This document shows positions 1 to 26,675 of a stretch of 26,675 nt of DNA, piece after piece. How positions within the stretch are numbered: position 1 is the first letter of the stretch; every line of letters starts with the position of its first letter. The stretch lies in contig VXIS01000476.1 in the NCBI GenBank assembly GCA_008704415.1, positions 1-26,675 on the forward strand. Direction: 5' to 3'. Position numbers and translations under genes: made by a program. The DNA comes from Sphaerosporella brunnea (Eukaryota; Ascomycota; Pezizomycetes; Pezizales; Pyronemataceae). The notes beneath the pieces are model-generated. The model was not told the DNA's origin. It was given only the letters and a program-made list of their open reading frames with translations, and did not search any database.

Positions 1-1360
1 CGTCAGCCATATCGTCTCAACTAGGAAGGCGGGAGCGGGGATTCCATCCACTTACGAGCTGCATTGCAAAGCGAGCCGAACGTCAGCCATATCGTCTCAA
101 CCAGGGAGGCGGGAGCATGGATTCCATTTCTTACCCACTTCATACCCACGTGAGAACGTCAGCCATATCGTCTCAACCAGGAGCGGTGGTTCCATTCACT
201 TACCGCCTGCATGTCAAAGCGAGCCGAACGTCAGCCATATGGCCTCAACCAGGAGCGGTGGTTCCATTTACTTACCTTCTGCATTGCAAAGCGAGCCGAA
301 CGTCAGCCATATGGCCTCAACCAGGAGCGGTGGTTCCATTCACTTACCGCCTGCATGCCAAAGCGAGCCGAACGTCAGGCATATCGTCTCAACCAGGAGC
401 GGTGGTTTCATTCACTTACCGCCTGCATTGCAAAGCGAGCCGAACGTCAGCCATATGGTCTCAACCAGGGAGGCGGAAGCGGGGATTCCATCCACTTACC
501 ACCTGCATGGCAAAGCGAGCCAAACGTCAGCCATATCGTCTCAACTAGGGAGGCGGGAGCGGGGATTCCATCCACTTACCACCTGCATGGCAAAGCGAGC
601 CGAACGTCACCCATATCGTCTCAACTAGGGAGGCGGGAGCTGGGATTCCATCCACTTACGAGCTGCATGACAAAGCGAGCCGAACGTCAGCCATATTGTC
701 TCAACCAGGGAGGCGGGAGCATGGATTCCATTTCTTACCCACTTCATACCCACGTGAGAACGTCAGCCATATCGTCTCAAGCATGGAGGCGCGAGGGAAT
801 CGGGTTCACTTACCACCTGCATTGCACAGTGAGTCAAACATCAGCTATATCGTCTCGTCCAGAAAGGTGCGGTGATATAATTCTCTTACGCGCTGCCACA
901 ACAAATGAGTCGAATGTCAGCTGTACCATTAACATGAAGCGAAATTAATGTCATCCTCTTACAAACTGCAGTAGGCAGTCAGCACAACGTCAACCGTATT
1001 GTCAGTGAGTGAGGAGTGGCAATGTGGCTTACTTACTTCCTGCCGCGCCAAGTGATCCGAGCATCAGCCATGTTGTCAGAAAGGGAGGTATCGTGAGCTA
1101 GTTCACTCACCTTCTATCAAGGGTAGAGAGCTGAATGTCAGCGGTACGGCCTCAATGAGGGGCAGTGTAGAAGTTCAGTTCACCCGCTGCGACACAAAAA
1201 GGAGTTGAATGTTAGCGATTCTCGGCGCTTGTTGGATGGTGGCAGTGCTCATACTCGCTGCCACAAATTTCAGCCATAGCTTTGGAGAGATAGCAAGGGA
1301 GTCTGCTTACTGTCTGCAACGCAATACGAGTTGATAATTAGCCGTAGCTTCAGTCATGGA
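1..1360 (-). repeat. Minisatellite of 72-80 bp units, graded from young (left) to old (right)
   Basis: On the plus strand, units begin near CGTCAGCCATAT at 1, 81, 157, 229, 301, 373, 445, 525, 605, 685 and 761, then become progressively degenerate (about 840, 913 and on to 1360). Unit lengths fall into classes of 80, 76 and 72 bp. The order is structured: the pair at 1-156 (80 then 76 bp) is nearly identical to the pair at 605-760, which suggests a higher-order duplication. Left units are mostly alike outside a few sites; right units share little beyond a core. The array begins directly after the last long exon of the minus-strand NLR gene and runs off the window edge. Three overlapping plus-strand open frames span it. 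I do not consider them genes, because 80- and 76-bp units shift frame and there is no gene-like composition. Confidence 0.95.
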
Positions 1361-1381
1361 AGGTTAAAGGTATCTGTTAAC
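1..1381 (-). other. Candidate chain of at least 18 one-codon (3-nt) exons and 18 short introns continuing NLR gene A
   Basis: Read on the minus strand, the last long exon ends CAG at 1382 with a donor at 1381. Each unit then shows a branch-like CTRAY site, NAG, exactly three bases, and GT. The 3-nt exons are 1311-1313 ACA, 1255-1257 CGA, 1184-1186 CGG, 1111-1113 AAG, 1037-1039 GAA, 963-965 TTT, 890-892 CGC, 814-816 GTG, 739-741 TGG, 660-662 CTC, 580-582 GTG, 500-502 GTG, 420-422 GCG, 348-350 GCG, 276-278 AAG, 204-206 GCG, 135-137 TGG and 56-58 CTC. Implied introns are 53-77 nt, the usual fungal size. Acceptors are CAG in 15, AAG in 2 and TAG in 1. Seventeen of 19 donors have G at +5. All exons are phase 0 and none is a stop codon, so skipping any of them keeps the frame. 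Splicing is inferred, not shown. The chain could instead be a recursive-splicing track. Confidence 0.65.
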
Positions 1382-3395
1382 CTGTAATAGGTTTCTACAC
1401 TCGTCCCCATATAGATAAACAAAGGCTCCGTTTTCGAGCAGCATCTTGACGACCTTATCGTGCTCCCTGATAGCTGCTGCATTCAAAGCACTGCCGTATA
1501 GGTCATCCCGACCGTTGATGTCGGCTCCATTCTCCAGTAGCTGCTTCACCGCCGTGTCGAGCCCAAGATATGACGCCACCATCAGGCTGGTAACGTTTCG
1601 AGGGTGAGCGTGGGAGGATTCATGGGCCGTCTGGTACACAAGGAACCATGTCAGCAATCGCCTTGACGCACTATCCAAAACTTCCAACGCAGAACCGGAT
1701 AATTCCCGCTTCTCCCATATCTTGGCCTCTGAAACGTGATATAGCCAATTTTTAGCTGCATAATCTAGAAAGGCATGCTTTCTGGTGTAATGATCGATTT
1801 CGTGTTCAGTTATTCGTGTCCGGTGGACGGAAGTTAGGACTAGAGGGTGGGTTTCGAAGACAGTAAACGAGAGATAATAGATACAGCGCATAGAGAGGGT
1901 GAGGTTTGATTCGATCGGACACAGTGAGTGCTTCCACGCGGAACTTTCCGTGGTAGGAGTGGTGGTTGTTGGCTCCTTTATCAAGAATTCCCTCGCCGTT
2001 TGGTGGATCAGGTAGATCTTCGAGTCTATGGCTCTAACGAAAAGTCCACATATATCCTTCACAACGGTTTCAGCAGAGTATAGGCGGTACGACTCGAGGT
2101 CTTCGATTGATTTGTGATCAGATTGTATTGCCAGTGCGATGTTCATCTCGTCGAATGTGAGGGGTCTTGCAGCCGCGATGACTATTTGGAGAATAGTTTT
2201 AGCCTTTTCGGGGTTGCAACTGTCCTGAAGAAGTTTTTCATAAATGGCATCCAGGTTGGGCGGTAGGTTGTTAAGGGCTTCATGAAATTCGCTTTTGCTG
2301 GCCACTGGACAGTCTTGGAGTATTTGGAGGATAAGGGAAACCCAAAGGAATGTTTGGTCGGCGCGCTTGACAAGCTTATCTCGAAGATCTTTCCGTACGT
2401 CATCAGGGAGGTTCCACTTTTCCCCCAGTGCTTCAACTTCGGTGTTGATGACGAGGTCGATGTCGGTGTTGATGGCGAGTGTTTGGTCCTCCGCTTTCAA
2501 TCTGATTGTTGGAAGCTTTCGGAATAGACTTTCGATAGAGCCATATGGACGACTAGTGAGAATGAATTTCAGGTTACGGCCTGTGCGATCCGCCGGCGTG
2601 TAAATGCTGACTAAAGACTTGATGAATTCGTTTCGAGTCAAATCTTCGCATTCGTCCAAACCATCGACGATACAAATGACATTGCCGCAGTCCGGGTCAG
2701 TTGTCGCTGCCGTGAAGATACGCCACAACGTGCCCAATTCTTTCGTAAATTTCTCGCCCTTGCCTTCGAACTCTGTCATGGCGTGTCTGATGAGGGATGT
2801 TTTCGCTTTGAAGAGCTGGTGCAGTAGCGCGGAAAGCGCAAATGTCGCAGTTTTCTGTTCTTCATTGTCATCTTTGAAGAAGAAAAAACAGACGGTGCTG
2901 GGTAGTTCTGATTGAGACACAAGTCTGTTGAGCTGGTCGACCAGGAATGAGGCCAACACAGACTTCCCACATCCCGGATCCCCCGACACCCACAAAAGGC
3001 TCGAGTTCTGTTCATGCCACCAGTGTCGATACTTTTCATGGTTGAGGAACCATTCAAGCGTTCCTGGCACTCGTGGTGGGTTTCTGCCCTTGTGGGACTC
3101 ATAACTCGAAGTGTAGAGAGAGCGCAAGCATGACTGGGGGGCTGAAGGATCGAAGTCAGATCGAAGTTAACGTCTTTCCGATCGAACAAAGTCACTTACT
3201 TGAGGATCTGCCAGAGCGCTCCGGTTAGCCAACCCTAAGTGCCATCAAGCAGGACCATGCCACCACGCATATCCGATCAAAACATCATCGCTCGAGGGAG
3301 ACTCACCCGCTAGAACCGTGAAAGTGCTGACCACCGTTCAAAGTTGACCCTTCGAAACTATTGTGTTGGGCGTGGATGTAGTTCGTGCCGTTCAT
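1382..3395 (-). CDS. NLR gene A: short N-terminus, NACHT NTPase, start of ankyrin domain (3' end beyond window)
   Basis: A STAND NTPase, probably a cytosolic fungal immune-type receptor. The model is exon 3307-3395, an 8-nt exon 3200-3207, then exon 1382-3141. Introns are 3208-3306 (branch GGCTAACC) and 3142-3199 (branch TCTGACTT); this combination keeps the frame. I chose the ATG at 3395 because it opens a frame into the first donor GTGAGT and has a TATA box about 120 bp upstream. The protein starts with about 30 Gly/Asn/His-rich residues and has no room for a folded effector domain. Then come a CLRSLY-type linker, Walker A GDPGCGKS, Walker B VICIVDGLDE, a TSRP sensor motif, the IHQTAREFL motif after the winged-helix region, and about two ankyrin repeats ending in NLLQ. 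No frame break is visible. If the intron starting at 1381 is retained, translation ends five codons later at 1364. Confidence 0.85.
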
Positions 3396-3511
3396 GTCGT
3401 GACTGGTGGGTTTAGTCGTGTGTTCGTGTTCGGTGCTTTAGTTGTTGTTGCCGTTGAGATCGGTGATGAGAAGCAAGTCGCTAGGGCAAAAGAGAGGAGG
3501 AAGCTTGGGGC

Positions 3512-3518
3512 ATATATA
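3512..3518 (-). promoter_or_regulatory. TATA box of NLR gene A
   Basis: A TATATA run on the minus strand lies about 120 bp upstream of the ATG at 3395. It is followed by a pyrimidine-rich stretch (3481-3510, read on the minus strand) and then an A/C-rich leader, a common layout for ascomycete promoters. Inferred from position only. Confidence 0.45.
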
Positions 3519-4877
3519 GAGCTTTCGGCAATGCGGAAATTGCAATTGTCCCCACGTTACCCCGCTGCCCCTCATTTCTGCGGATGTGACGACGTTCAGT
3601 TGGCTGCGCTGTGTTCTGTTTGCAGACCGGCTTGCACAGACCCTACATGCATGAGCATGCGTTGCTGCTGCATAGATAGCCATCTGTTCTTGCGATTCGT
3701 CGCCAGCCGTGCCAGTCAGCAGTGTGTGCAACCCCAGCAATGCGGCGCTCAGTCGCCTGTCCCGCAGTTCACCATCAATCGCTCGCCCACCCTCTTTTCT
3801 TGGTGTGGGATCGTGAGTTCAGGATATTTGTCTATGCATGTACTCGATATTGTGTTGTATGTATCGTTAAAGCTATATGTAGCTCCATTGCTGCTCTCGA
3901 ATACGGTCCGCTGCTGAAAACGCACTGATTTCGGCTATTCGTCGTCAAGATCGCAGGGTAGGGCTGAAATAGAGTAGACAGGTGGAACAGGGTGACAAAT
4001 CCCGGTTGTCGATCGGGTGACCTCCGCCGCTGCAGCAACGAACGATGAGCACCGACGGATCCGGATCCGCTTTGGCAAGACGGCAGGACAATGCATAATG
4101 CATTCGTTGAGCACACTCACACCACCCAGCAGGGCCAACACCCCCACAGCTATATTTACCGAACATACACTGAAAGATTGCAGGCTCTGGTGCACTGACA
4201 TCTAGCGATGGAAAAAAATTACGATCGGATACCGCCTCATACGGTGCGCGAATGTCCGGTCTGGGACGTCATTTTCGTGGTTTCTGAGCGGGCGTGGCGA
4301 GGCTCGTATGTATCCAGATCTCGTCACTTTGTCGTTTGTTAACTAGTTACGCCCGGAGCCGACAAATCGACTGCGGGTCTACCTTTCAAAGTGGTCTATT
4401 CATCATGTAGAGTAGGGCTGGCAATTCGTTCTGAGAACTGAACGGTTTAGCGACCGCTACCTGTGCCACAATGCGGGCTGTTTGGAGAAAGTTACACCAA
4501 AAAATCACAACAAAGGAAGCGAGCAGAGGTTCTCACTAAGAGAGTGAAGAAGCGGCAAAAGCGCACCAGGAGCCTCAGGCTGGCTATCTTGGCAGCCCGG
4601 CCGTCACGGCCCGGCTGAATGGGTAAGCCGGGCTGCCTCATGACGAGTGATCCCTCGTGCAGCGCTCCGCGTTGCTCAGCCCCCTTCAATGAACATTCGC
4701 AATGTAATGGAACTGTTGGCCTTGTGCCTATACAATGGTTTCTCCACCAATGAAAGTAAAATCTTTCGACCTGGGGCACTTTCTGGGCGTGGCGAGGTGA
4801 ACCTTGGCCGGTCAAGAGGTTTCAGTCAAGCCATAAGTCAATCACTGCAAGGCCGGCCACTAAATCTGGAAGCAAAT
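3519..4877. other. Gene-poor interval, no supported gene
   Basis: Short open frames occur on both strands but overlap one another, lack recognisable motifs and show no coherent intron signals. At 4593-4640 a GC-rich palindrome pairs GGCAGCCCGG with CCGGGCTGCC. It resembles the GC-rich inner motifs of the hAT-like element at 8898 and may be a fragment of a related element. Nothing else is supported. Confidence 0.6.
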
Positions 4878-5097
4878 GGGTGACTTCCCGTCGCTCTATT
4901 TGGACCGAATAGAACAATTACCTATACGCTGGATTGGAAGTTTCGACCTGATTTTTGGCGTTCTATCGCCGCCAAATAGACCGTTGCTACTCAGGTATAG
5001 ACAGGGGGGGTCCCCACCATACAGCACGTTGAGATTGGTTATTTGTTGCATAGAACATCGATCTATTCGGCCGCTATAGGGCGACGGGAAGTCACCC
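4878..5097. mobile_element. MITE-like element, 220 bp, 22-bp terminal inverted repeats
   Basis: The ends are near-perfect inverted repeats: GGGTGACTTCCCGTCGCTCT at the left matches the reverse complement of the right end with one mismatch in about 22 bp. Weaker pairing continues to the CCGAATAG motif. A possible 3-bp target duplication AAT flanks it (4875-4877 and 5098-5100). There is no coding capacity. The transposon family is not assigned. Confidence 0.8.
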
Positions 5098-5706
5098 AAT
5101 ATATTCACAGAAATAACTTCAGAGAACACAGTCATGCATGCAGTGGCGATCGGTGTTTTGTCGAAGGTTTTGCCGCGGATGCACCTAATTGAACTGCGGT
5201 GCGAGTCAAACAGCCGGGCCGCCGAGGTAGCCCATGCAGCCATTGGGCATGAGAAAGCCGAGGCCGAGTGTACCTCGGCAGGGATAAAATTCTTTAAATC
5301 CCGATCCTATTTCTGTTTCTATTCGGCGGGGGGGGGGGCCCACCTCCTATCGCTATCCTTTAGATACCCTGTTCTAACGCCCGATCGGCTCTCTAACGGC
5401 CTCTATAGACTCGCGGGAAGTCCTCCAGCACTGGACGGTTCCCCTGGACTCGGCAACTTGGGACGCCGGCGCGGCGGCATGGACTCAGCGGTGGTAGATG
5501 GGCTTTCTCTCGGCACTGGGAGCTTGTATACGTACTATAGATCTGGGAGTTTGTTGAGTAGATCGATGTTGTTGTTTATGACTGGAGTGGTGGCGACATT
5601 ATGGAGTTCCCACCAACGGATAAGCAACGGTTGGGATTACGGACGGGTTATTGATACCCGTTTAAACAGTCGCTAACGGAAGTCGATTTGCCAAACGCGC
5701 CCTAAC
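5098..5706. other. Interval without a supported gene
   Basis: A 180-residue open frame lies here (5134-5676, plus) but has no family motif and no neighbouring splice structure, so I do not call it. An 11-base G run sits at about 5328-5338. Otherwise I see nothing. Confidence 0.5.
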
Positions 5707-5921
5707 TACTATCGCGTTGCCCCCAATGTCGTTTTTTCCCCAATGTCGCGCTGAAAAATACGCCGGCTGGCTCAGAAATACGCGGGCAGCTTTGTCGGGG
5801 ACCTCGCGTAGCAACCACCACTCAGAAACGTTGCCCGTTGCCATGCGTATTTCTGAGCCAGCCGGCGTACTTTTCAGCGCGACATTGGGGAAAAAACGAC
5901 ATTGGGAGCAACGCGATAGTA
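5707..5921. mobile_element. MITE with about 75-bp terminal inverted repeats and TA target duplication
   Basis: The left arm (5709-5783) and right arm (about 5845-5919) are inverted copies with about two mismatches over 75 bp, separated by a short loop. Both ends are flanked by TA (5707-5708 and 5920-5921), the target duplication typical of Tc1/mariner-type elements. There is no coding capacity. The high identity of the arms suggests a recent insertion, and the RNA would fold as a long hairpin. Confidence 0.9.
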
Positions 5922-7390
5922 AGCGCGCGATGTAACCTCCGACCCTTAACCCTGACCCTAGGTATCTCAACGTACACCCTTACCAGGTACAGAGTGATTG
6001 ATACTGCTCATGCTAAAGGAGTCTTCGTGGGACGCTAAAAAGGCATATGGATATGGGTCACCGAGGTGCTCAGAAGGTCTCGACTGGTGACAAAACCACT
6101 GAATGGGTCGCCCGTCAAAAGCCAATAACGTCCCAATTCCCAGTTGTCACCCGTCAATATCGAGCTGTACCGCTCTTTATCGGCCAGTAACGGCACATCT
6201 GTATAGCTACCAGCTCTAAACCAGAGCTAAAGGACCCTGTGCTGAGATACAGTACCCGAGTGACACCCTGTGTTTGTGTGGCGGAGAGACGCAGTGCAGC
6301 GGATGAAGCAAAACGCTTTCTTGTAGGATCACCAACCGGAGAAGGACTTCGAATTCTGTACTACGCCTGTCCCCGAAGGCCTCTGACCCAGTAATACCTC
6401 CACACTTGCGCTTTCGGTGGTTCGAGGGGTTGATGCGGCGATATTACTTTGATCTGAACCGGTCTGCCTCGGGTTTATAGAAGCGTTACCAGAGCCGGCA
6501 CAGCCATCCGATACAGGTACAGTAGATAGATTCACAACTCGTCCCAGCCGCCTTCCGAGCGCCCGCAAGATCCACTACGGACCGGTAGGGGGATGGGATG
6601 CTAAAATTCTTAGTTCGGGGTTTTCCCGAACACCAGTGGTCAACCGAGAAATTTGAGGTGTACCGTGCAGGATAACGTTTCCACGCCCAATTGTCGACCG
6701 CAGATGCGGACAGTTCACCCAGTTTGACTTCTGCCATCGCCAGATCGGCAGCGCTGATTGGAGAGGTTAAGCCGGCCTGAATACGAGCCGAAGCGGAGAA
6801 ATCGGAGAAAACAGAGATGTTCGGCTGAAACGAGCTGCAAACGGCATCAGATTACGGGTTAGCTTGCATATCGCAGAACCAACCAACGGGCGCCAGCGAG
6901 CTCGAAGGCCAACCTTCAGCCAAAAGTTTAATTAACCATTAGAGAGCACACGTTGCGATGTTTCAGTCGCGAACTTTGCAGGCCCGCTGTCGCGAGGCTT
7001 GCACTATCCAGATGTGGGAGGTACTCCGATACACATGTAGAGTACTAGTACATACATACAAGAGAACCGATCCAAGGCAAGAATACCGATTTTTAGCGCG
7101 TTGCATCATGTCTAGTTGCATCATGCACCAAGCTGTTATATAAACAGCCAGCAAAGTAGCGTACTCAGGTAGGCATCCAACCACCTCCTCTTCCAATCAC
7201 GACAAATCACCTCCATCGCTCTCACCATTCGTCTGGCGCGCCCGCGCTAGGCTTTTGCAGATCAACAGTTTTTTGATTGTTTGTGCGGGGGAAAACCTCC
7301 GCATTATTGTCATTTGTTTTGTTGAGTGCGGGGAATGCGGGGAGCAATTGTGACCATAGATTCGGTTGGCCTTGTTGACGAGTAGTGTTG
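5922..7390. other. Gene-poor interval upstream of the 7.5-kb gene
   Basis: No frame longer than about 85 codons carries a recognisable motif. A TATATAAA sequence at about 7136-7143 could be a promoter element, but no gene starts shortly after it. I see no RNA gene and no transposon ends. Confidence 0.5.
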
Positions 7391-7395
7391 TGAAG

Positions 7396-7524
7396 GCCAT
7401 AAATATATGAGCACCATTTGACTAGTACTTACAAAGAGTCCTCCAACTTCATCACATTGCTGAACCTTTTCCACCTCTCACAACTCCACGAGTCTTTCCA
7501 TCGCTACAAACCAAACACTTCACG
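7396..7524 (+). promoter_or_regulatory. Core promoter and leader of the 7525 gene
   Basis: A TATA-like CATAAATATA lies at 7399-7408, about 120 bp before the ATG. The leader is C/A/T-rich and nearly free of G, as in strongly expressed fungal genes. The start context is CACGATGG. Inferred from position and composition. Confidence 0.5.
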
Positions 7525-8475
7525 ATGGTCTTATTTCCCGGTGTGAAGCAGGCTAAATCTGGCGCCTACTACTACGACGACAACGACGTCAAGATGATCA
7601 AAATCCCTGTCGGAAACTGCACAGGCGACTACATCCTCACTCCGGCCGAGCTCAAGCGCTACTTCGGTGTCGACCCTGCGCGCATGGGGCCGCTTCCCGA
7701 ATACCTCATTGCGCCGCATCTCGACAGTACCTGGAACGAAGGTCGTTCCAAAAACACGGGACGCACCTGGTGGGACATCACCGGCGAGGTCGTCGCCTAC
7801 AGGCCCATCGAGTGGGTTCCCATCGTGCGCGAGCTGAACACTATCCCCTACAGCCACTTCGAGGTTGAATACAAAAAGACGACGACCAAAATTCAGACCT
7901 CCGAGCTCTACGGCCACGCTGAGGCCTCGTTCACCATCGCCCTCGGCGCGAGCTGGAAGGGCATCAAAGTCGAGGCTTCCACCACCACCAGCATCGAGGC
8001 CAGCTATAAAACTTCCACCGAGCTCCACGAAGAGATCGTCGAGAAGGGCAAGCGAGGTGACGTCGTCATCAAGGAACTCGCCATGGGCATGGCTCTCAAG
8101 GTGAAGCGTGTTTATGAACGCAACGTCAAGCTGTACCTCAACGACGAAAGCAAGAAGGATTCTCTCACCTGGGACGGACCAGCTTGGGGCGAGCTCTGGG
8201 TCGGTGCTAATGACCTCCGTGATGTCGGCGCTCTGCAATTCAATCCCATCATTATGTCCGGAAGCGGATACAGCAAAAGCTTGTACTTGCAGGTCCTTCC
8301 AGTCTTCAACGCAGACAAGAAGTTGACGAATATGCATCTGGCGCTTAGCAACAAGGGCTGGACCGATTGGTATGCTTACCCTGGCGGGTCGCATATTCCC
8401 AACCCCCCTAGGGTAGAGACGATTCCTCTTCCCGACAACAAGAAGCCTTTGGTTACTTTTATTGCTGTGAATTAA
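7525..8475 (+). CDS. Intronless 316-residue protein, possibly beta-pore-forming-protein-like; function unknown
   Basis: A single uninterrupted exon from an ATG in good context. No signal peptide or transmembrane helix is visible, so it is probably cytosolic or released without a classical signal. Codons end mostly in C, with AAG, GAG and CTC forms favoured, unlike the NLR genes. This suggests high expression or a different origin. Residues 1-115 are aromatic-rich with two close Trp and look globular. Residues 119-170 are rich in Ser/Thr with alternating polar and apolar residues, and a second such stretch follows at 178-204. That pattern resembles the insertion hairpin of aerolysin-like beta pore-forming proteins. 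The last hundred residues are Trp/Tyr/Pro-rich. I do not recognise the family from the sequence; the pore-forming reading is a guess from pattern. The gene itself is well supported. Confidence 0.8.
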   Translation: MVLFPGVKQAKSGAYYYDDNDVKMIKIPVGNCTGDYILTPAELKRYFGVDPARMGPLPEYLIAPHLDSTWNEGRSKNTGRTWWDITGEVVAYRPIEWVPIVRELNTIPYSHFEVEYKKTTTKIQTSELYGHAEASFTIALGASWKGIKVEASTTTSIEASYKTSTELHEEIVEKGKRGDVVIKELAMGMALKVKRVYERNVKLYLNDESKKDSLTWDGPAWGELWVGANDLRDVGALQFNPIIMSGSGYSKSLYLQVLPVFNADKKLTNMHLALSNKGWTDWYAYPGGSHIPNPPRVETIPLPDNKKPLVTFIAVN

Positions 8476-8845
8476 TTGCTGTAAAGAATGGTAGAGAGGC
8501 TGGACATCATAAGCTGGTCAACAGCCAGTGTCTGCACCTGTATCTCTTTTTGTCTTTATCTTCCTGTCTCCCCTTCTGGTAGCTTGTTGCAAGCTTTTCC
8601 CTGGAAGGCTTTGGTTTGCAGGCAAATAGCTATGTCGTCAATTCAGACTGGAGTTTGGCCAAATACTTCAAAATGGGATGTTGTCCTTGTAATGATTAGC
8701 GGTGATAAATGCGTCGGGGGTTGGTAAGTCGACATGTGGGACGTCAGGGTTGTTAATAAGCGGTGTTCGGTCGACGTCAACGAACGATTAGAGGAAGCCG
8801 TTGTCTGCGCGATGTCCAGGGTTGGTGGGTTAAGAGAATGATAAA
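8476..8845. other. 3' flank of the 7525 gene
   Basis: Presumed 3' untranslated region and spacer. No convincing frame, motif or repeat is seen. Confidence 0.5.
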
Positions 8846-8897
8846 TGGATGTACCCTCTAGGCTTCTCCGCTTCGACTCCGATTGGGCAGGCGACAG

Positions 8898-9352
8898 CAG
8901 TGTTCTCAGTAGCCAGCCCAAACAGCCGGGCGGGCTGGGCCGGCTGCTTTAAGCAGCCAGCCCGGCGGGCTTTTTGCATCAGCCCAAACGGCCCAGCCTG
9001 CTTTCGGGCCAGCCCGGCTGCCAGAGCTTTGAGTGATCTCCGGTGAAGACCGGCCAGTGCAAGTGGCGGGGTTCAATCGGCGCCGATAGACTTATCAGGC
9101 TCTGTGATGTTATACTAAACTCCTATCTAGTGATCTCCTCCTAGTCATCATTTTATACGGCGAACATCTTTACGTACTTTTCATTTCATAGCAGTAGTTT
9201 ACATCACGGTGGTGGTATTTGTCGTCATTGTGGGCTGCAGCCCAAACAGCCGGGCGGGCTTTTTGATCAGCCCAAACAGCCAGCCGGGCTGTTCGATCAG
9301 CCCACATCCGCCCAACGAAGCCGGCCGGGCGGGCTGGCTGTTGAGAACACTG
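8898..9352. mobile_element. Non-autonomous hAT-like element, 455 bp, with 8-bp target duplication
   Basis: It starts CAGTGTTCTCA and ends TGAGAACACTG, a perfect 11-bp inverted repeat of hAT style. It is flanked on both sides by GGCGACAG (8890-8897 and 9353-9360), an 8-bp target duplication as expected for hAT. Inside each end are repeated GC-rich motifs such as CAGCCCGGC, CCGGGCGGGC and CCCAAACAGCC, which could be transposase binding sites. No transposase is encoded. The target site is the WAGD-encoding stretch of the copia relic. Confidence 0.92.
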
Positions 9353-9558
9353 GGCGACAGCTCTACTATGATAGCAAAAACATGAGCTAGTCGTCCTCTC
9401 AACCTCGAAGCCGAATACATTGCCTGTCTGCTCTGAAGCCTCCAGAGAAACTCAGCGGCAGAAGGATACGCCCGACAAGACTATCAATCTCAAACCGCTT
9501 ATCTTCCTATCACATCCGGAAACACCAAGGCGCGCACGAAGCACATCGATATCCGATT

Positions 9559-9702
9559 AGGGCCGCTCAGTCGGGCGTTTTTGACTTGGATATCCGAATT
9601 TTCAACCGCCTGTTTATCGATGTCTGCAAGCCATTTGACGCTGAAACTGGCCTTAAATCCAGAAACGTCGAAAAAAATATAAATGCCTGTCTGAGCGGCC
9701 CT
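9559..9702. mobile_element. Short 144-bp inverted-repeat element inside the copia relic
   Basis: The ends are AGGGCCGCTCAG and its inverse CTGAGCGGCCCT, flanked by ATT on both sides (9556-9558 and 9703-9705). It interrupts the copia relic just after the KHIDIR motif. There is no coding capacity and the family is unassigned. Confidence 0.75.
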
Positions 9703-9900
9703 ATTTCACAACAGGACACCTCCAGGACCACGAGCGCTCGATCGTCGAATTCGCGTATGTCAACATCGACGACAACCTCGCTGATACCATGACGAGGCCC
9801 CTGACTGCGGAGAAGCACAGGAGCCTTATCTCTCGGATGAGCTTGAAGCGATGGATATCTGAGCTTGTTTTCGCTATTTCTTACGGCAAACTTTTCTAAT

Positions 9901-10326
9901 TGCTAGGAAGTATCCACCCGAGCGCTCTATTGATTACCGTATTTTTTGGAGCGAAAGGTTGTCTTTCTTAAGGCGCCACCAAGAAATCTACAGCGTTTTT
10001 TTCATCCAGCGAGTGATGGGCTCGCCTCAGTGCGACTGCCGAATATCCATAGTTTTCAACCACGACATGAGAACGCGAGTGGCTTCATTCACCGAAGTCC
10101 AAGCCCAGCGGCTTACTCATCCCTAACAGTACCTCGACGGGAATCGAAATTGGTTGCGTTTGCTACCAGTAGTGTGGGCATAAACCTTGTCCTAGACATC
10201 GCCCACTCGGAGGAGGTCCGGTTTTGTTTGGCTTCGAGGCACTGCTGATCGCCCGAGTTGCAGCCATTTGGCGCCGATGGAGCATTGGATCAAAACCGCG
10301 TTGCTTAGAATGGACCCTCCTTCTAC
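9901..10326. other. Interval without a supported gene
   Basis: A 100-codon plus-strand frame (9946-10248) has no recognisable motif. Part of this may be further decayed retrotransposon sequence beyond the copia 3' end, but I cannot show it. Confidence 0.45.
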
Positions 10327-10570
10327 TGGATGACTTCCCGTGAGACTTTAGAACGGGTTTGAAACCGGGAATTTAGATTTGGAAGTTGTCGCACTCCCGT
10401 AAAAATTAGAACCAGAATTTGGAAAATCTTAATTATCTAGACTTTATTATGCAGCTTTACCCTAACCCAGCAATTAGCGCTCTAATTATTAGGAGCTGCG
10501 TTCCAAAGGGCTTAGGAGAGGGTAACTGTTAGGGGTCCTTAGAATCTAAAATCTCACGGGAATTCATCCA
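10327..10570. mobile_element. MITE-like element, 244 bp
   Basis: The left end TGGATGACTTCCCGTGAGA pairs with the reverse complement of the right end with two mismatches in about 24 bp. CTAC flanks both sides (10323-10326 and 10571-10574), a possible target duplication. The end motif TGACTTCCCGT is shared with the element at 4878, so the two may use related transposases. The inside carries CCCTAACCC, a telomere-like motif. Confidence 0.72.
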
Positions 10571-10667
10571 CTACCTACTCTACCTAGCAAGAAATGCTGA
10601 TCCAACTCGACATTTTGGAACGCAGCTTCTGATTGGAGCGCTAATCGTTGGGTTAGGATAAAGCTGC
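10451..10667. repeat. Inverted repeat of about 55 bp straddling the right end of the 10.3-kb element
   Basis: Sequence 10451-10506 (GCAGCTTTACCCTAACCC and onward) recurs inverted at about 10615-10667 with roughly 80-85% identity. One arm lies inside the 244-bp element and the other just outside its right end. This suggests a second, differently bounded element overlapping or nested with the first. Confidence 0.7.
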
Positions 10668-10976
10668 GTGATGAAATGGTAACTGTGTACTAGAGTACGC
10701 CGCGTTGTTTTGATTCTGCCGACCCACAACTTGTGTTGGTGGTGTCCCAAATGAGCTGCAAGCAGCTGAGACATCACATGAGGCTGAGAATGAGGGCAAC
10801 GATTGGTGCAAATGTAACGAGGACGCGCTGCATGTTCTCAGACCTGTTGACGAGGCCTTCTCCGCTTTTAAATCCATTTCCGTGAGCGAAAGGAAACACT
10901 CTCTTCGACTGTCCCGAGGAACAGCACCCTGCGCGATCTTGTCGACAGCCAGGTTCGCGTTTCTGTCACTGTCGAC

Positions 10977-13900
10977 ATGTCCCCAGCAGAGAACCGGGAA
11001 GCTACGGCTATCAAGCAGAAGCCAGGTCGCCGTCCAATGTTTGCCTGTGGCTTTTGCGGGCGTTTTTCACAGAAAGAGCAGATCTCCGGCTTCCCCCTCG
11101 ACCACCCCACATACGCGCACGAGCGCCGAGGGAAGCCAGGTACAAATAGATGTCCGTGAGCCCAAAGCGACTGTCAAGGAGGCCATCAAAGAGTCGAGAG
11201 GATTGCCACACTCCAAGCCGCCAACTTATCCCGAACCTTCGCTACAGGTCCCAGGCACGCTCGGTTCGGAAGCCCAAGCGTCGCGCAGATCCTCTGTGAG
11301 CTTCGCCCCGACTCATGGCGATAAGAAGAACTTGTGAGTAATATTGACACTCAGAAAACAAGGGCTTACTGATGTGTTGCTCCTTAGAATCTCATGGAAA
11401 AAGGCGCATGATATCGCAACCGAAAAATTGACTGATGAGGAGAGGTTGGAACTGCAAACAGACTTAGCATCTGAATACACAGTCTTTTCGGTGCTCGAAG
11501 CAGCTGAGGTGGCTCGGAAAGATCGCGATGAGAGCAAATGGCGATATACTAAGAAGAACGGCGACGTGGTGATTCTGAGGGAAAGATTTGACACAGATAG
11601 TGGAGGGATTTGAAAAGTACGCAACAATTATCGATGTGGCGATTCAACACCACCCGGATGTAACGAGTCTTGTGTGGGCGTCTGCGAGGTTCCTTCTACA
11701 GGTATCGTATAGTTTCTTTGCCATCAGCACGCCATAACTAAACACACCCTAGGTCTATCTCAACCACCAAGAGACGGTGGAAAGGCTGGAAGCGGCTCTT
11801 AAGACCATCATCAATTCAATGGCAAACTGCGAGTTTTATGCCAACATATACACGGAGGCATTAAATGTGTATTTTCGAACTCCGTCAACGGCCATCGCAT
11901 GGGTAGAGAGGTTGGAAAGTGCACTGCCCCAATTCTATGCTGCCATTCTTGTCTTTGCTGTCAAGGCGAAAAGATACTTCACTCCTTCAACCCGAGGTAT
12001 GATTGCATCTTACCATGTTTAGAAACGAGGACTGAAAGTGATGGTCGCGCTTTAGGGAAATTTACGAATCCTTTGAAGCCCTTTGCCACTACACTCCAGA
12101 CATACCTCAACAACATCGATGAGACAGAAAGAGCCCTGAAGGAGTTGGCTGGAATGGCCACAATGCAAGGGGTGAAAGGTATGCAGATTGTCCGGCTCCA
12201 GTTTGGGCTTGCGTTCTAATTGTTCTCGTTGGTAGACCTTCGGGACAACACGCTGAATATGGTCGGCGAAATGAGAGGCCTCTTCACTGAGATCTCGGAC
12301 GATAAAGCGAAGCAGTGGCTCAAAGCTGTCAATCCGGACCCCATGTACGATTTCAATAAGGAACGCCGACTAGAAGGGACTTGTGAATGGATCTTCAAAA
12401 ACGAACGTTATAACACTTGGATAAACGGCGATGGAAATCGTGACCTTTGGGTAGTTGGCATACCAGGTAAGAACTACAGACGCACCTGACTCCAAACGAA
12501 GCTGAAAGCTGTATGTAGGTGCCGGAAAGTCGGTTCTCGCCACCAACCTGGTTGACAACCTACGCAAATCAGGGGTCGTGGTCCTGTTTTTCTTCTTCCG
12601 AGATGGCGATGACCGAACCACATCACCATTAGAGATGGTTGCCAGCATAATCGCCCAGCTCACCAATTCGGGCATAGACCGGGAACGGCTCATGCGCATT
12701 CTGAAGCTACGGATGGAGTCCAGTTCTTATTTCACAAATGACGTGAGCGAGCCAAGAGACTTCAAAAAACTTTGCGCAACTCTCATCGAGATGCTCCAAG
12801 GTTATGCAGCAAAAGTGATCATTCTTTTGGATGCCCTCGATGAATGCAGCAACCCTAAGGATGTCGCCACTCACCTTATAAAACCCTCACTTGATCCCTC
12901 CACTATCACCAGCCAGATGATGTTGCCCGGTATTGGCGAGCTGATCGACGTTCGATTTCTTCTCACTGGTCGTCCAGTCGTTCACGATATCTTTGCAAGC
13001 TTGCCCAATGTATCGACGATCGACATGGACGTCAACGATGATATCCGCCGCTTCGTCACCGAAAGTGTAGCCGATAATGAAAGCTTAAGACTCCACAAAG
13101 AGAAAATCATTGCGACGATCTACGAAAATTCAGCGGGGATGTTCCGATATGCAGGTACCTTTTCCCCAAGCCTCTACCGACTTGCCAATCAGTGTATGTA
13201 CTAACGTTATTGCCAGCACTTGTACTGGAAGAGCTCAACGAGCCTTCTCCTGTGGAAATCTCGAAGCGTCTCCAGACCATGCCAAAGGGGATATCTGGCA
13301 TGTACGAGCTTATCCTTCGCCGCTTGGGTTCGAAAGGAAGTGACTGGGACCTCGAGATGCGGCGCAGGCTACTAATGTGGGTAACCATGGCTTTCCGGCC
13401 GGTGACGGTTGCCGAAATGCAGTACGCTTGCGTGGTTGTGGACGGATACAAGTCTTTCGATCCAGATCAGGTCGTATTGCCGAGTGAGAAGCAGATGCTG
13501 ACATGCTGTGGATCCCTACTGGAGGTGTTCGACGGCAACAAGCTGCGCTTCACCCACCGTACTGTGAAAGAATTTTTGCTACAGCCGCTCGAAAAGTTGT
13601 CCGAAGTCGCCCGTCCGGATAAACGCGTGACACGATGTATGGTGGTACATGAAGGAGAAGCACACGCTTCCATGGCGGTGACCTGTGGTGAGTGGATCCG
13701 GAAAGTTGCACCTCAACGTTGCTAAAGAACAGTACAGTTACCCAACTCTTCTCAAAGGATTTAAGCGGCGTGCCCTTCTGTTACGCTGTCCAAGAGTGGC
13801 TAAAGCACGCGAAAGCGGTTCCTCGAGGCCGCGATGCAACATCTCTTTCGCAGACTCTGTGGAAGCTTGTCGCAGACGTCTTCTGGGATCGCGACACAAC

Positions 13901-16381: not shown

Positions 16382-17143
16382 TCACGTTATGTGAACGCAA
16401 GCAGCCCCACCGTCTCCATCCACGGAGTCTTTGACCTTCTTCCGACTCTCCAGCTGTGGCGTTCTCTTTCGTGTGTTCAATCGCCTCCTCTTCTCTTGTC
16501 TCCACTTTTTATCTGCCTCCTTCTGCCGGTGTTTCTTGTCTTCCTCCTCTTCCTGCCACTCTCGCAGTCGCCGTCTGCGCTCTTGCTGCAGCTCTATAAA
16601 CTCCCGTTTCCTCACGCGCGTCGTTTCTTCATTCCTCGCCACCGCCGCCTCCTCGCCCTCGGTGTCTTGCACCGCCCACACGGCTCCAGGAGCATCCGTC
16701 ATTTCCTTTAGATCGGTTGCGTCGTGGTCTGGTGAGTAGAACACGGTGACTGGCCCGCACTTATCAATATCAACGTTTCGGCGAGCGCAGATGCACTCCA
16801 GGTAGGTGTGGGAAATTGTAGCGGTGTAGATGACATAGACAGGTGTCATTGGTCTCGTGAGTCGCGTCTTATAGCAAATAGCGATCAAGTAAGGATGTGT
16901 CGCCGTCACAGTGAGGAGGAGTCGTAGCTGGGCCCGTGCCAGCGCCAGCAGGTAAGCGGCGAGCGTAGCGTGCGAACATCTTCGCCTGGCGAGTTCGGGA
17001 TGTAAGTCGATGAGGGCCATCATCGGTAGGGAGACGTGCTGGTTTTTCCTGCTGGCCTGGAAGCGTAGCACTGCCTTTGAGCCTTGCGGCGGGTCACGAA
17101 TTTCAAAACTTCCGAGGAACTTGGCGTTAGGATAGCAAGGCAT
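16382..17143 (-). CDS. Hypothetical protein, 253 residues, with long charged Arg/Glu-rich tail
   Basis: A single exon. I chose the ATG at 17143 because a TATA box (17208-17215) lies about 65 bp upstream; the frame is open farther but without an ATG. The first 130 residues look like a folded domain. They include a hydrophobic Leu/Ala-rich helix region around residues 50-75, followed by beta-type stretches rich in Tyr, Ile and Val with several Cys. From about residue 165 the chain becomes strongly charged (runs of Arg, Glu and Lys), probably a long helix or coiled coil. There is no signal peptide. I recognise no catalytic motif and propose no function. It seems a real gene because the domain-like composition and the promoter position agree. 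Confidence 0.6.
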   Translation of the reverse strand: MPCYPNAKFLGSFEIRDPPQGSKAVLRFQASRKNQHVSLPMMALIDLHPELARRRCSHATLAAYLLALARAQLRLLLTVTATHPYLIAICYKTRLTRPMTPVYVIYTATISHTYLECICARRNVDIDKCGPVTVFYSPDHDATDLKEMTDAPGAVWAVQDTEGEEAAVARNEETTRVRKREFIELQQERRRRLREWQEEEEDKKHRQKEADKKWRQEKRRRLNTRKRTPQLESRKKVKDSVDGDGGAACVHIT

Positions 17144-17207
17144 TTCAGGTTGCCTGGTAGTTGAGGCTGTATGGAATGCCGGTGCCAGTGTGGGCACAGG
17201 GCTCGGG

Positions 17208-17215
17208 CTTTATAT
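17208..17215 (-). promoter_or_regulatory. TATA box of the 16382-17143 gene
   Basis: ATATAAAG on the minus strand lies about 65 bp upstream of the chosen ATG, leaving a short leader of about 35 nt. Confidence 0.5.
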
Positions 17216-17403
17216 CAATATCTTCTCGCCTTACAGACGTCGCGCTTCAGTTCCAGGACCGGCCTCCCAGACCCGTCTCACTCAAACAAAGTTTTACACC
17301 TCTCCCAAGCGCTGTATTTTACAGTGTAACCTTACTTAAGTTAATAATTTTACCCGACCCGTATGTAATCGAACCGTAATTATCGACCCGTACAGCGGTC
17401 GAC

Positions 17404-18360
17404 AAGAGCTGAAGGAATGGCCGCATAAGGAGATCGCTGCATCTAGCGACTCTCAGGTCTACGAAACGTTGCCGGACGCGGACAAAGAGCAAAGTGAAAA
17501 CCCCATGCACAGTGATACAGGTGGATCCGATGGCTTCCCCAGCAGTCCCCCCAGAATTGCATCGTCGAAATCGTATCGTCCAAGCAGTGAGGCAGGATGC
17601 GAAGATGAAGATGACGATGCGCACCTTGATCGGGAGCAGTGCGAGGCGGTCACGCAGAACATGCTCCTGGCCTTCCTCGAATCACCTCTACCGTCAGACT
17701 GCTGTGGATATCCGCAATCCTGCCATCTCCGGACCGCCTTCTGCTTTCGCTTTCGAGTAAGCTCCAGACCCTTCTGGAGTACTGTCTTGACAATGAAGCG
17801 CCAAACATCATCAAATCGCTTCAGGGAGCCTTCATTTCCATCGACGGTGGATCGCTGGTGGCCAATATCTAGACCAAAAGTGGAGGATGCACGTTGTTGG
17901 AAGACACGATCTTTTGCGTGTGAAGGTAGGATATATGCACCGCTGTTTGGGGCCTGTAGCGCCTACGATTGCACTCCAAGCAGCGAGGCTAATGGAGATG
18001 TCTCCAGGCAAAAGGAAAGGATTCGAGATCAGACTACCATCGCTGGCATCCTGGCCCAGCAAGCCGGCGAGCTGCTTGCGGCCATGCGCGAACGTGTACT
18101 TTTCCTCGCACAAACCTCACAGCAAGCTCCGGAAGACATCGTGGACGCTCTCCCCCAGCATACACGCACCGTACGCCCCCCCCTTCGCTTAGATACTGAC
18201 TGAACTGGGACTAGATGTATCTTATCAGCGCAGAGCAGACAAAGCTTTACTTCGGCGAGATGATGAGTGAGGCCGGCTGGATGCGGCCGAGTCTGTGGTA
18301 AAGATCCTGAACTCGCTGTCTGAGCAGTGGGCGGAGTTTTGGTTGGGTCAAGCTTGAAGC
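17404..18360 (+). pseudogene. Decayed gene of unknown function, open frame split over three frames
   Basis: Protein-like pieces follow one another in changing frames: an acidic Ser-rich start (17469 on), then LQTLLEYCLDNEAPNIIKSL and IDGGSLVANI (about 17760-17870). After a TAG come TKSGGCTLLEDTIFCV, KVGYMHRCLGPVAPTIALQA (17925 on), and TTIAGILAQQAGELLAAMRE. After a likely short intron (about 18171-18214) follow EQTKLYFGEMMSEAGWM and LNSLSEQWAEFWLGQA. At least one in-frame stop and two or three indels separate them. The pieces read as one former helical protein. I do not recognise the family. Confidence 0.7.
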
Positions 18361-19734
18361 GCTGGGCGTCACAGGTCTTTTCGAGTCGACACCGGTTTCT
18401 AGTCACTACAGAACGTAGAGATACAAGTTCCTGCATCCTTTATGTTGACAACGATACTGCCCTACTCGGAGCTCCTGTTTCCGGCAAAAAATCCTCCCAG
18501 CCTCGCCCGGAGAGCTGAAGGCAAAGGTGAGGTCCGTTGATATGGATTCTTAAGGGATTAAAACCCCTTCTATGACCCTGAAAATTCGCCCCCACATCCA
18601 ACTACAACCCTCGAGTCTGTGGTAGAAGATGCAAAACTCCACACACAGATTCTTGCGGAGAGTCACTGCACGGCATTGAAGACAACCATCGAAGCGCCAT
18701 GACGGCCGCCACCACCGCCGAAGTGTAAACATGCCGAGATTCAAACTGAGCAACTGCGCCGCATGAACTCGCCACGCCTCTGTCGGCACTCTTGTGCCCG
18801 AAGCATGCGGAGCACCGCTGCCATCCATCGGTGAATCGGAAAGCAGAAGGGGCGAGAGCTTTGTGATGCACCAGAGTCTGGTCTGGTTATCACACAGCCC
18901 GCCGGAGATAGTCGCTCCTTTTATACTAGTACACCGCAGTGCTCAGCGCGTAAACTCCATAGTTGTCAGACAATCGATGTCGCTATCACAAGCAGCATGT
19001 TTATACATCTAGTCGGCACTCTTTTCCGCGAGGCAAACAACTAGGAAACCACAGCAAGCCACGATCACAAATGGAAACAAACCAAGACAGAGCACCTAAA
19101 GCCCCCAATAACCATCGCAGTGTTGCAAACAGCCAAGCTCCAACCTTCTCATCTGCAGACTGAGCCACTAGAATGAGGTCTAAATGAAAAAAGAAAGAAA
19201 GAAAACGCATGAAGCAAAGGTGAGAGAGCAATTGGTGCGGAGAACAAGAAAGGCCCGGGGCTCGATGTCCTCCTCCCACAGGGCCAGGTCTCCTCCCTAT
19301 ACACCCACCCGAAGCCACCGATGATTCCCGCGACACCGTTTGGCATTGCCATTGGGAACCGTAAGAAAGGCTTACTCGAACTCGAAGATTCAGGCAAGCG
19401 TAATAGTAGATGAGGTCCGAGAGGCCACAAGCCGCGTGAGTTAGGCGATCCAGCTCCCCTGTTACTTGCGATGGAGAAAATCCGAACCGCGTTTGTTTAC
19501 AAAAGGGGCAAGCTTGGATGAGACATAGACGAACGTTGGTGATCGCATGTGCACGGTTCTGCCCTCGTCGAAACATCTTCCAAGATCTCTGCCAATTCAT
19601 GCTTGGTTTTCCGTTGTCTGCACCGTTTGGTTCGAGTGCTCTGCAAAGTAGATACTTCTGTCTTGAATTACCTTATGCCTAATGATTCCCGTATCCATTC
19701 ACGTTATCCAAGGCGCTCTCGTTCCCAGACTTTT
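18361..19734. other. Interval with weak coding traces only
   Basis: The stretch 18605-18700 reads ESVVEDAKLHTQILAES in one plus-strand frame, protein-like but soon closed by stops. It could be a farther exon of the decayed gene upstream. A 199-codon minus-strand frame at 19001-19600 has no motif and is not called. Confidence 0.35.
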
Positions 19735-20250
19735 TCTGTGGATCTAGAAGCTGACCTCGTTTACGTACATTTTGCCATCAATAAATTTTTTTTTGGCCGC
19801 TATTTATTGAGACTCGATGCTCTGGCTAGAGAGCTCAAATTGGAGGCCATTCTCTTCGAAAATACAGGCGCAGCCCTCTGGTCTCGCCGGAGCGAGTGAC
19901 GCGATTGATGGATAGATACGACTGGAACAACTCAGAGATTCTAACATTGCTCAATCATCAAATGTGATGATGCCGCACAACCATTCATTGCGTCAGTAAT
20001 GTTATTGAGCATGGCTCTGCAGATCAGGATAAATTGAGAAACAAACTTGGGCTTGTTGAAGATATGAAGGTGCGAGACCAAATGTTTGTGCTCTGAGTTC
20101 TCTGCTCACTGTTATCTACAGTCCAAACTCGGTGGGACGAAATTGTATCGGCCTTCGAATAGGGAGATTTACTTGGCGAACTCTCCAAAATCAACCAGAG
20201 CATCGAACGATTGACAAAGGTGAAGTCGATACCGACTGCTGGTAGGCTGC
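19735..20250 (+). pseudogene. Possible relic of an N-terminal domain of a STAND or HeLo-type protein
   Basis: Helical, protein-like pieces lie in order but in broken frames. First comes a segment ending in LDALARELKLEAILFENT (about 19800-19870), then RLMDRYDWNNSEILTLL (about 19905-19955), then VIEHGSADQDKLRNKLGLVE. A plausible intron follows (about 20067-20120), then RWDEIVSAFE, a stop, and GDLLGELSKINQSIERLTK. Spacing and helical character recall fungal HeLo-like N-domains. This identification is weak. It is convergent with NLR gene C and lies about 360 bp from its 3' end. Confidence 0.4.
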
Positions 20251-20612
20251 CATGCAGGTTCAAGGAAGTGTTTTCAAATTGTGCTATACACTACTATTGT
20301 ATAGGAAGTATATCACAAGATTCGCTTAAAGAGAGGAGAAAGCGAACGTTGTATATTCATCATTCGCCACCTCCTTACTCCGTTCCGTTTCCTATCAGCC
20401 CACTCCGCTCCTAGACATATAGACCCTTTCTTTCTCTCCGACTTCCTCCGACTCCTATCTATTAGACTTCCAGCCATCCATCCATCGTCACTCTCCTCAC
20501 CCTTCCTCTCTGCCGATACGTATCGCTGCTCTCGAGGATGAGTAACATCTCTGCCTCCGACCTCGGTCGGGCCTTTCCTCCAAAAACCCGGCATTATCAA
20601 GGCTCCCTCACA
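20251..20612. other. Spacer between relic and NLR gene C
   Basis: Contains a pyrimidine-rich tract (about 20415-20510) and presumed 3' sequence of NLR gene C. No gene seen. Confidence 0.5.
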
Positions 20613-20744
20613 GCTACTTAAGCAACCTCAGTACCCTCAGTGATGCCCGGTCTGCCCCATAATCGATTCCTCGCCTCAGTTTCAACACTACTTTCTTGTC
20701 GACGCCTAGCTCGATGAGTACTCTGACCGTGGAGTCGTGGCCAT

Positions 20745-26555: not shown

Positions 26556-26675
26556 CGCGCGTGTTTTCTGTGTCTGGTTTCGATGTTAACTAGATACACA
26601 AAGGAGAAACACCGCAGTTGAAGTCGAGAGCAGTGAGATTAGAGATGGAAGGAATCGTCAGCGCAATTGCAAGGA
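26556..26675 (-). other. 5' flank of NLR gene C
   Basis: Upstream leader of NLR gene C as read on the minus strand. It is cut by the window edge, so no promoter element can be assigned. Confidence 0.4.

Follow-up and report, generated by a model that had tools for sequence, protein, structure and literature searches.

How does the receptor gene at the left edge of this stretch of DNA end? The window, by which we mean the whole 26,675 nucleotides analyzed here, comes from contig C419 of the 50.6 Mb genome of Sphaerosporella brunnea and carries on its minus strand a gene, NLR gene A, whose protein (P0001) matches the Pfam models NPHP3_N (5.6e-42), GPIID_WHD (5.3e-08) and Ank_2 (1.5e-07). The organism is an ectomycorrhizal member of the Pyronemataceae in the Pezizales; according to the available parts of its genome report, a single-spore culture was sequenced with PacBio, and genome and transcriptome reads are deposited as SRP214822 and SRP215074 (PMC6908789). 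A preliminary description of the DNA behind the ankyrin exon had proposed that it is spliced as a chain of at least 18 consecutive single-codon exons, each adding one residue to the receptor.

The motifs on which that proposal was built are all present as described. AG, exactly three bases and GT follow each other in 18/18 units on the minus strand between positions 1 and 1381, separated by introns of 53-77 nt, and a CTRAY motif precedes the AG in 16 of these units, its A lying 20-24 nt from the AG in 15 of the 16 (in the TTT unit the distance is 12 or 35 nt). The ankyrin exon ends in CTA TTA CAG at position 1382, and the first donor starts with the G at position 1381, in phase 0. Read in order, the triplets give TRRKEFRVWLVVAAKAWL with no stop among them; the first junctions are predicted to lead from the exon end CTATTACAG to ACA-CGA-CGG-... 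(Table 1). The units closest to the ankyrin exon have diverged from each other; farther away the array consists of tandem repeats, most of them 72-80 nt long. The proximal units (581 nt) form a chain of eight, compared with a maximum of three among 20,000 letter shuffles, reached in 9 of the 20,000.

Table 1. Receptor exon, first intron and predicted codon exons in the window
Feature	Positions	Strand	Description	Basis
NLR gene A, open frame	1382..3166	-	NACHT (NPHP3_N) - winged helix - ankyrin; ends ...CRNLLQ at first donor	translation + Pfam
Predicted intron 1	1314..1381	-	68 nt, donor GTTAAC; in-frame stop if retained (frame ends at 1364)	
Predicted codon exon 1	1311..1313	-	ACA (T)	
Predicted codon exon 2	1255..1257	-	CGA (R)	
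Predicted codon exon 3	1184..1186	-	CGG (R)	
Predicted codon exon 4	1111..1113	-	AAG (K)	
Predicted codon exon 5	1037..1039	-	GAA (E)	
Predicted codon exon 6	963..965	-	TTT (F)	
Predicted codon exon 7	890..892	-	CGC (R)	
Predicted codon exon 8	814..816	-	GTG (V)	
Predicted codon exon 9	739..741	-	TGG (W)	
Predicted codon exon 10	660..662	-	CTC (L)	
Predicted codon exon 11	580..582	-	GTG (V); last unit common to C419 and C105	
Predicted codon exon 12	500..502	-	GTG (V); C419 and C105 arrays diverge from this unit	
Predicted codon exon 13	420..422	-	GCG (A)	
Predicted codon exon 14	348..350	-	GCG (A)	
Predicted codon exon 15	276..278	-	AAG (K)	
Predicted codon exon 16	204..206	-	GCG (A)	
Predicted codon exon 17	135..137	-	TGG (W)	
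Predicted codon exon 18	56..58	-	CTC (L); contig ends in following unit	
Array	1..1381	-	as far as the contig reaches	

The contig stops inside the array at base 1, within the unit that follows codon exon 18. The same locus is also found on contig C105, where it continues through the end of the array for a total of 29 units and then reaches a candidate last exon. Compared over window positions 526-11955 (except base 1953) and 16954-26675, the two contigs are free of mismatches and have 7 single-base gaps between them. They also terminate at one and the same base. C419 seems to be a duplicate. Their arrays are the same through unit 11 and differ beyond it (window 1-525 versus L004 6700-8574): C105 continues with a repeat insertion, 18 more units, of which the outermost are diverged again, and the candidate last exon. 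This difference reflects either turnover in culture or an error in assembling a tandem repeat. The inserted element, a dispersed repeat lying inside a single array intron (L004:8045-8574, equivalent to C105:64044-64573), lengthens that intron to 593 nt. It contains about 452 nt with at least 39 other copies at 97-98% identity (40 of 372 candidates were scored), some of them on contig C172 about 7.8 kb apart, and is perhaps a long terminal repeat.

Comparable arrays lie behind two other NACHT-type receptor genes, one on C65 with 56 units and one on C35 with 36, a 37th unit call there being the exon end. Arrays are present at three (the window locus, C65 and C35) of the 18 receptor places with scannable downstream DNA. 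These 18 comprise the window gene, 15 and a further 2, another with only 144 bases having been left out; other receptor matches within the window went through the scan along with it and stand outside the count. In all, the genome has 61 NPHP3_N matches, the C105/C419 duplicates included. A second receptor gene in the window (20977-21826, minus strand) contains tandem 99-nt repeats with 85% matches, which lie in an ankyrin-matching frame. The intron sequence differs among the three arrays, yet each unit of each of them has three bases between AG and GT. In searches with array DNA, that of the window matches only C419 and C105 and that of C35 only itself. The C65 array additionally matches arrays on C138 and C64. 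These tandem arrays (C138:20.5-21.8k, 23.6-23.9k and 31.6-32.4k; C64:20.2-21.4k) are 64-74% identical to the C65 array over matches at least about 100 bases long, and one C138 match run steps by 154 bases, twice 77. Neither contig has an NPHP3_N, WHD or NACHT match, nor an Ank match among the matches listed; these arrays may belong to other genes.

Since the chain finder itself requires AG-NNN-GT, the telling point is the absence of doubled spacings, which would have betrayed an exon of another length that had been passed over: the unit-to-unit spacing in C105, C65 and C35 is 56-82 nt throughout, except for a single 596 nt at the insertion. When the gap k between AG and GT was varied from 0 to 9 in the window, L004, L005 and L026-L042, chains of at least three appeared only at k=3, plus three k=7 rows on the same arrays; in the window, all listed chains at k=3 fall within 209-1316. 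Under a looser donor rule with k=1-6, applied outside the window to L004, L005 and L008-L044, gaps other than three gave chains of at most four. The single exception, a chain of 10 at k=6 on the L004 plus strand, falls on the strand opposite the C105 array and only repeats that array's unit. Among the 121 units of the three arrays, the donors include 52 GTGAGT and 45 GTAAGT, the introns end in CAG (101), TAG (17) or AAG (3), and CTRAY lies upstream in 108. The lengths of the 117 ordinary inter-unit introns are spread over all three frames (43/35/39), and hence the frame is kept by the three bases alone. The same spread rules out a coding repeat read straight through the array.

The full predicted tails are TRRKEFRVWLVADDDDVKLDERIAGFLET for C105, KTREQYREWWVLLIRPWPTWTPAEWTPAPHIPFEFL for C35 and FPKDTEGRKIYFDDDGVYYRDDGVRGRNRYYGRYYGYYVPRDGVYPPDPEVRTLPPI for C65, the last read in phase 2. 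Tyr, Asp, Gly and Arg, which are frequent in binding sites, are abundant in the predicted C65 tail. Between the window locus and C35 the strings RKEFRVWLV and REQYREWWV can be aligned, with a score reached by 70/5000 shuffles when six comparisons were made, which is only a hint that the codon strings of the two genes may be homologous. The ends of the tails are more tentative: for all three array genes, both the last exon and the frame assigned to it are candidates. The candidate last exon on C105 is a GAG/AAG-rich tract (L004:6340-6685, minus strand) that could be entered at two acceptors, giving either an E/K-rich end of 117 residues, whose frame closes in KKKKKKWWQMLMSRLGRWRSRARW, or an R-rich end of 56 residues. 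Behind the C65 and C35 arrays the phase leads to early stops, and reading by eye found another intron-like stretch downstream.

Are the triplets coding? We took the reading phase from the ankyrin exon, which sets it to 0 in C105, 0 in C35 and 2 in C65, and counted stops against column shuffles. In the reading phase the three arrays together have 0 stops versus 4.6 expected (C105 0.64, C35 2.72, C65 1.25), with a joint probability for zero of 0.479 x 0.024 x 0.243 = 0.003. The six other phases contain 7 stops versus 9.1 expected (C105 1+1, C35 2+3, C65 0+0). The support comes mainly from C35; C65 is free of stops in every phase, so that the test is uninformative on phase there.

A second measure is how fast the triplets change relative to their surroundings. 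We paired each unit with its closest relative, keeping disjoint pairs whose flanking introns were at most 15% different (41 pairs; 8, 21 and 12 in the three arrays). In these pairs the triplets differ at 40/123 sites and the introns at 218/5852, a ratio of 8.7, neighboring units having a common intron so that some introns are counted twice. Restricting the comparison to the intron interior, without the donor, branch and acceptor stretches, gives 76/2032 and again a ratio of 8.7; across four thresholds the ratio is 5.3-11.1. At the strictest threshold the window locus contributes three pairs with no triplet change, and the signal there comes from C65 and C35. In each of the arrays, under another pairing, 0/51 of the remaining three-column stretches reach the difference seen at the triplet. 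The column-by-column contrast over all young units is less clean. With the triplet column of lowest variability as the yardstick, 1/55 flanking columns at the window locus, 13/55 in C65 and 24/55 in C35 equal or exceed it; the C35 flanks had no indel alignment. In paired units the repeat positions do not vary alike, as those of a neutral minisatellite would. In the old units, the mean flank identity is only 0.385-0.438 and the splice sites are nevertheless kept. The predicted exons thus appear to evolve faster than the introns, a reversal of the usual order that marks either selection favoring diversity or some local mutational process. Taken together with the open reading phase, the fast triplets answer in the affirmative the question of whether these codons would be translated.

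As to which of the two processes is at work, the differing pairs of the two phase-0 arrays comprise 11 non-synonymous and 0 synonymous cases, and of the 21 pairs that differ, 14 do so at two or all three triplet bases. The latter pattern, set in nearly identical introns, is what might be seen if the codons were spliced and translated, with their fast change coming from local mutation or template switching at the exon instead of selection on the protein, an explanation that is compatible with the splicing part of our own. We regard it as unlikely, given the avoidance of stops in the reading phase and the lead, weak as it is, of codon positions 1 and 2 over position 3 in pooled pairs (15, 17 and 8 differences). 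The lower variability of position 3 (8/41 versus 32/82, P = 0.04) is a weak effect and is absent in the window's own locus, where the counts are 2, 3 and 3.

The codon exons are missing from both gene models that we examined, P0002 for the window gene (FN846DRAFT_228488) and P0122 for the C35 gene (L029). The latter stops before the ankyrin part; its N-terminal part contains, ahead of the NACHT part, the sequence GHSFGG, which we take to be a lipase-like motif. P0002 reads into intron 1 and ends VNRYL, and its relatives P0004 and P0006 end shortly after NLLQV, as they would if transcripts ended in or retained intron 1 (...NLLQVNRYL) and the array were a minisatellite outside the message. This is extremely improbable in our judgment: a minisatellite would not be expected to give exact three-nucleotide spacing in three unlike arrays, nor splice motifs with fast-changing triplets between them, and models ending just past a donor are also what unmodeled splicing would produce. 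The missing codons could also mean that a single large intron takes in the entire array, or that the codon exons are always skipped, with NLLQ joined to a distal exon and the internal sites as remnants. Such total skipping would be tolerated, as all triplets keep the frame, and C105 does offer a candidate last exon. Still, triplets within an intron should vary as introns do instead of 8.7 times more, their reading phase should not avoid stops, and their splice sites should not persist in old units whose flanks are so little alike; we hold this alternative to be very unlikely.

Accordingly, the three-base spacing, the open phase and the fast triplets favor the proposal with which we began: we are confident that the 18 AG-NNN-GT units are successive introns with predicted single-codon exons, which would add one residue per unit behind the ankyrin repeats of a NACHT receptor and whose codons would be kept diverse by selection. 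The preliminary claim of one residue per unit thereby gains the array's far end, two further arrays, the open phase and the triplet change as support; the splicing itself is predicted from sequence.

At about 72 nt, and with good donors, CAG at their ends and CTRAY motifs, the introns are consistent with fungal intron definition. Sites three nucleotides apart could hardly be bound together; each intron would presumably be defined singly and removed in succession, and the newly joined codon would then occupy positions -3 to -1 of the next donor, every removed intron adding one residue to the receptor tail. Unequal exchange would multiply the units and selection would hold the codons different as the introns stay alike, with the variable tail probably recognizing non-self ligands. 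The earlier suggestion that any subset of exons could be skipped holds for the frame, which would always be kept; in the phase-0 arrays the codons would be kept too, but in the phase-2 array of C65 skipping could change the junction codons. Much more tentatively, one may picture a general diversification of receptors by one-residue cassettes, in which unequal exchange multiplies units, introns are homogenized, whole codons are replaced and splicing strings together or samples the codons; such a process would be common to Pezizales, and the difference between C105 and C419 would be array turnover within one isolate. We consider this rather doubtful as a whole. If true, the genome, and perhaps also the splicing machinery, would compose a hypervariable recognition peptide letter by letter.

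These observations indicate that receptor tails of this kind escape current gene models. The codons differ far more than the surrounding DNA, and such signs of diversifying selection on predicted single-codon exons suggest a diversified recognition surface. They also pose an extreme splicing problem, with at least 29 consecutive three-nucleotide exons and scant room for simultaneous recognition of their sites.

How do these arrays compare with known systems? The microexons of animals and plants and the micro-exon genes of Schistosoma likewise comprise very short exons, with lengths usually divisible by three; to our knowledge, they do not include chains in which 29-56 exons each have exactly three bases. 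The introner-like elements of fungi are families of near-identical introns in many unrelated genes. The S. brunnea arrays are like them in their near-identical introns, but instead of one intron sequence spread across many unrelated genes, the array DNA of the window and of C35 is confined to its own loci. Other fungal NLR repeats, as described in the available part of one account, similarly form a C-terminal tandem array whose repeats are highly similar but for a few variable positions; however, they are wholly coding, whereas in S. brunnea the predicted coding part is just 3 bases in a repeat of about 75, the rest being intron (PMC9815663).

The closest parallel is in the truffle Tuber melanosporum. 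The preliminary description knew of no chain of this kind, a view that has to be given up: the accessible parts of several papers cite Iotti et al. 2012 (Fungal Biology 116:261) for an expanded NACHT-ANK family of this species in which the alternative splicing of many 3-bp exons creates diversity (PMC4986451, PMC3689799, PMC10197012, PMC9815663). In the part of another that could be consulted, functional microexons are said to be undescribed in filamentous fungi, and its reference list includes Iotti et al. 2012 (PMC11121469). Among the 120 listed of 1538 homologues we find the T. melanosporum 'NACHT-ANK domain protein transcript variant 5' (P0090) and other Tuber NACHT-ANK proteins; the tail of P0090 (residues 580-662) matched only P0090 itself in a protein search at E 1e-6. 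Among the papers listed by searches of the open-access literature, outside which most subscription papers lie, none showed codon-sized exon arrays in genera other than Tuber. Both the Tuber nank genes and those of S. brunnea have the NACHT and ankyrin architecture, and both organisms belong to Pezizales. Several array-bearing genes within one family is likewise a Tuber-type trait, encountered in S. brunnea at the three receptor places described above. For the nank genes, the consulted passages report dozens of 3-bp exons in the sensor region and alternative splicing, whereas the S. brunnea arrays (29 units on C105, 18 in the window) are seen at the level of genomic DNA and its splice motifs. 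Codon-sized exon arrays being already known from Tuber, what is new is the second genus and the fast-evolving codons. Their reach beyond Tuber to a second genus suggests that such arrays are part of the receptor repertoire of Pezizales, and S. brunnea adds to the picture tandem expansion, three intron families, one phase-2 array and codons that differ more than their introns.
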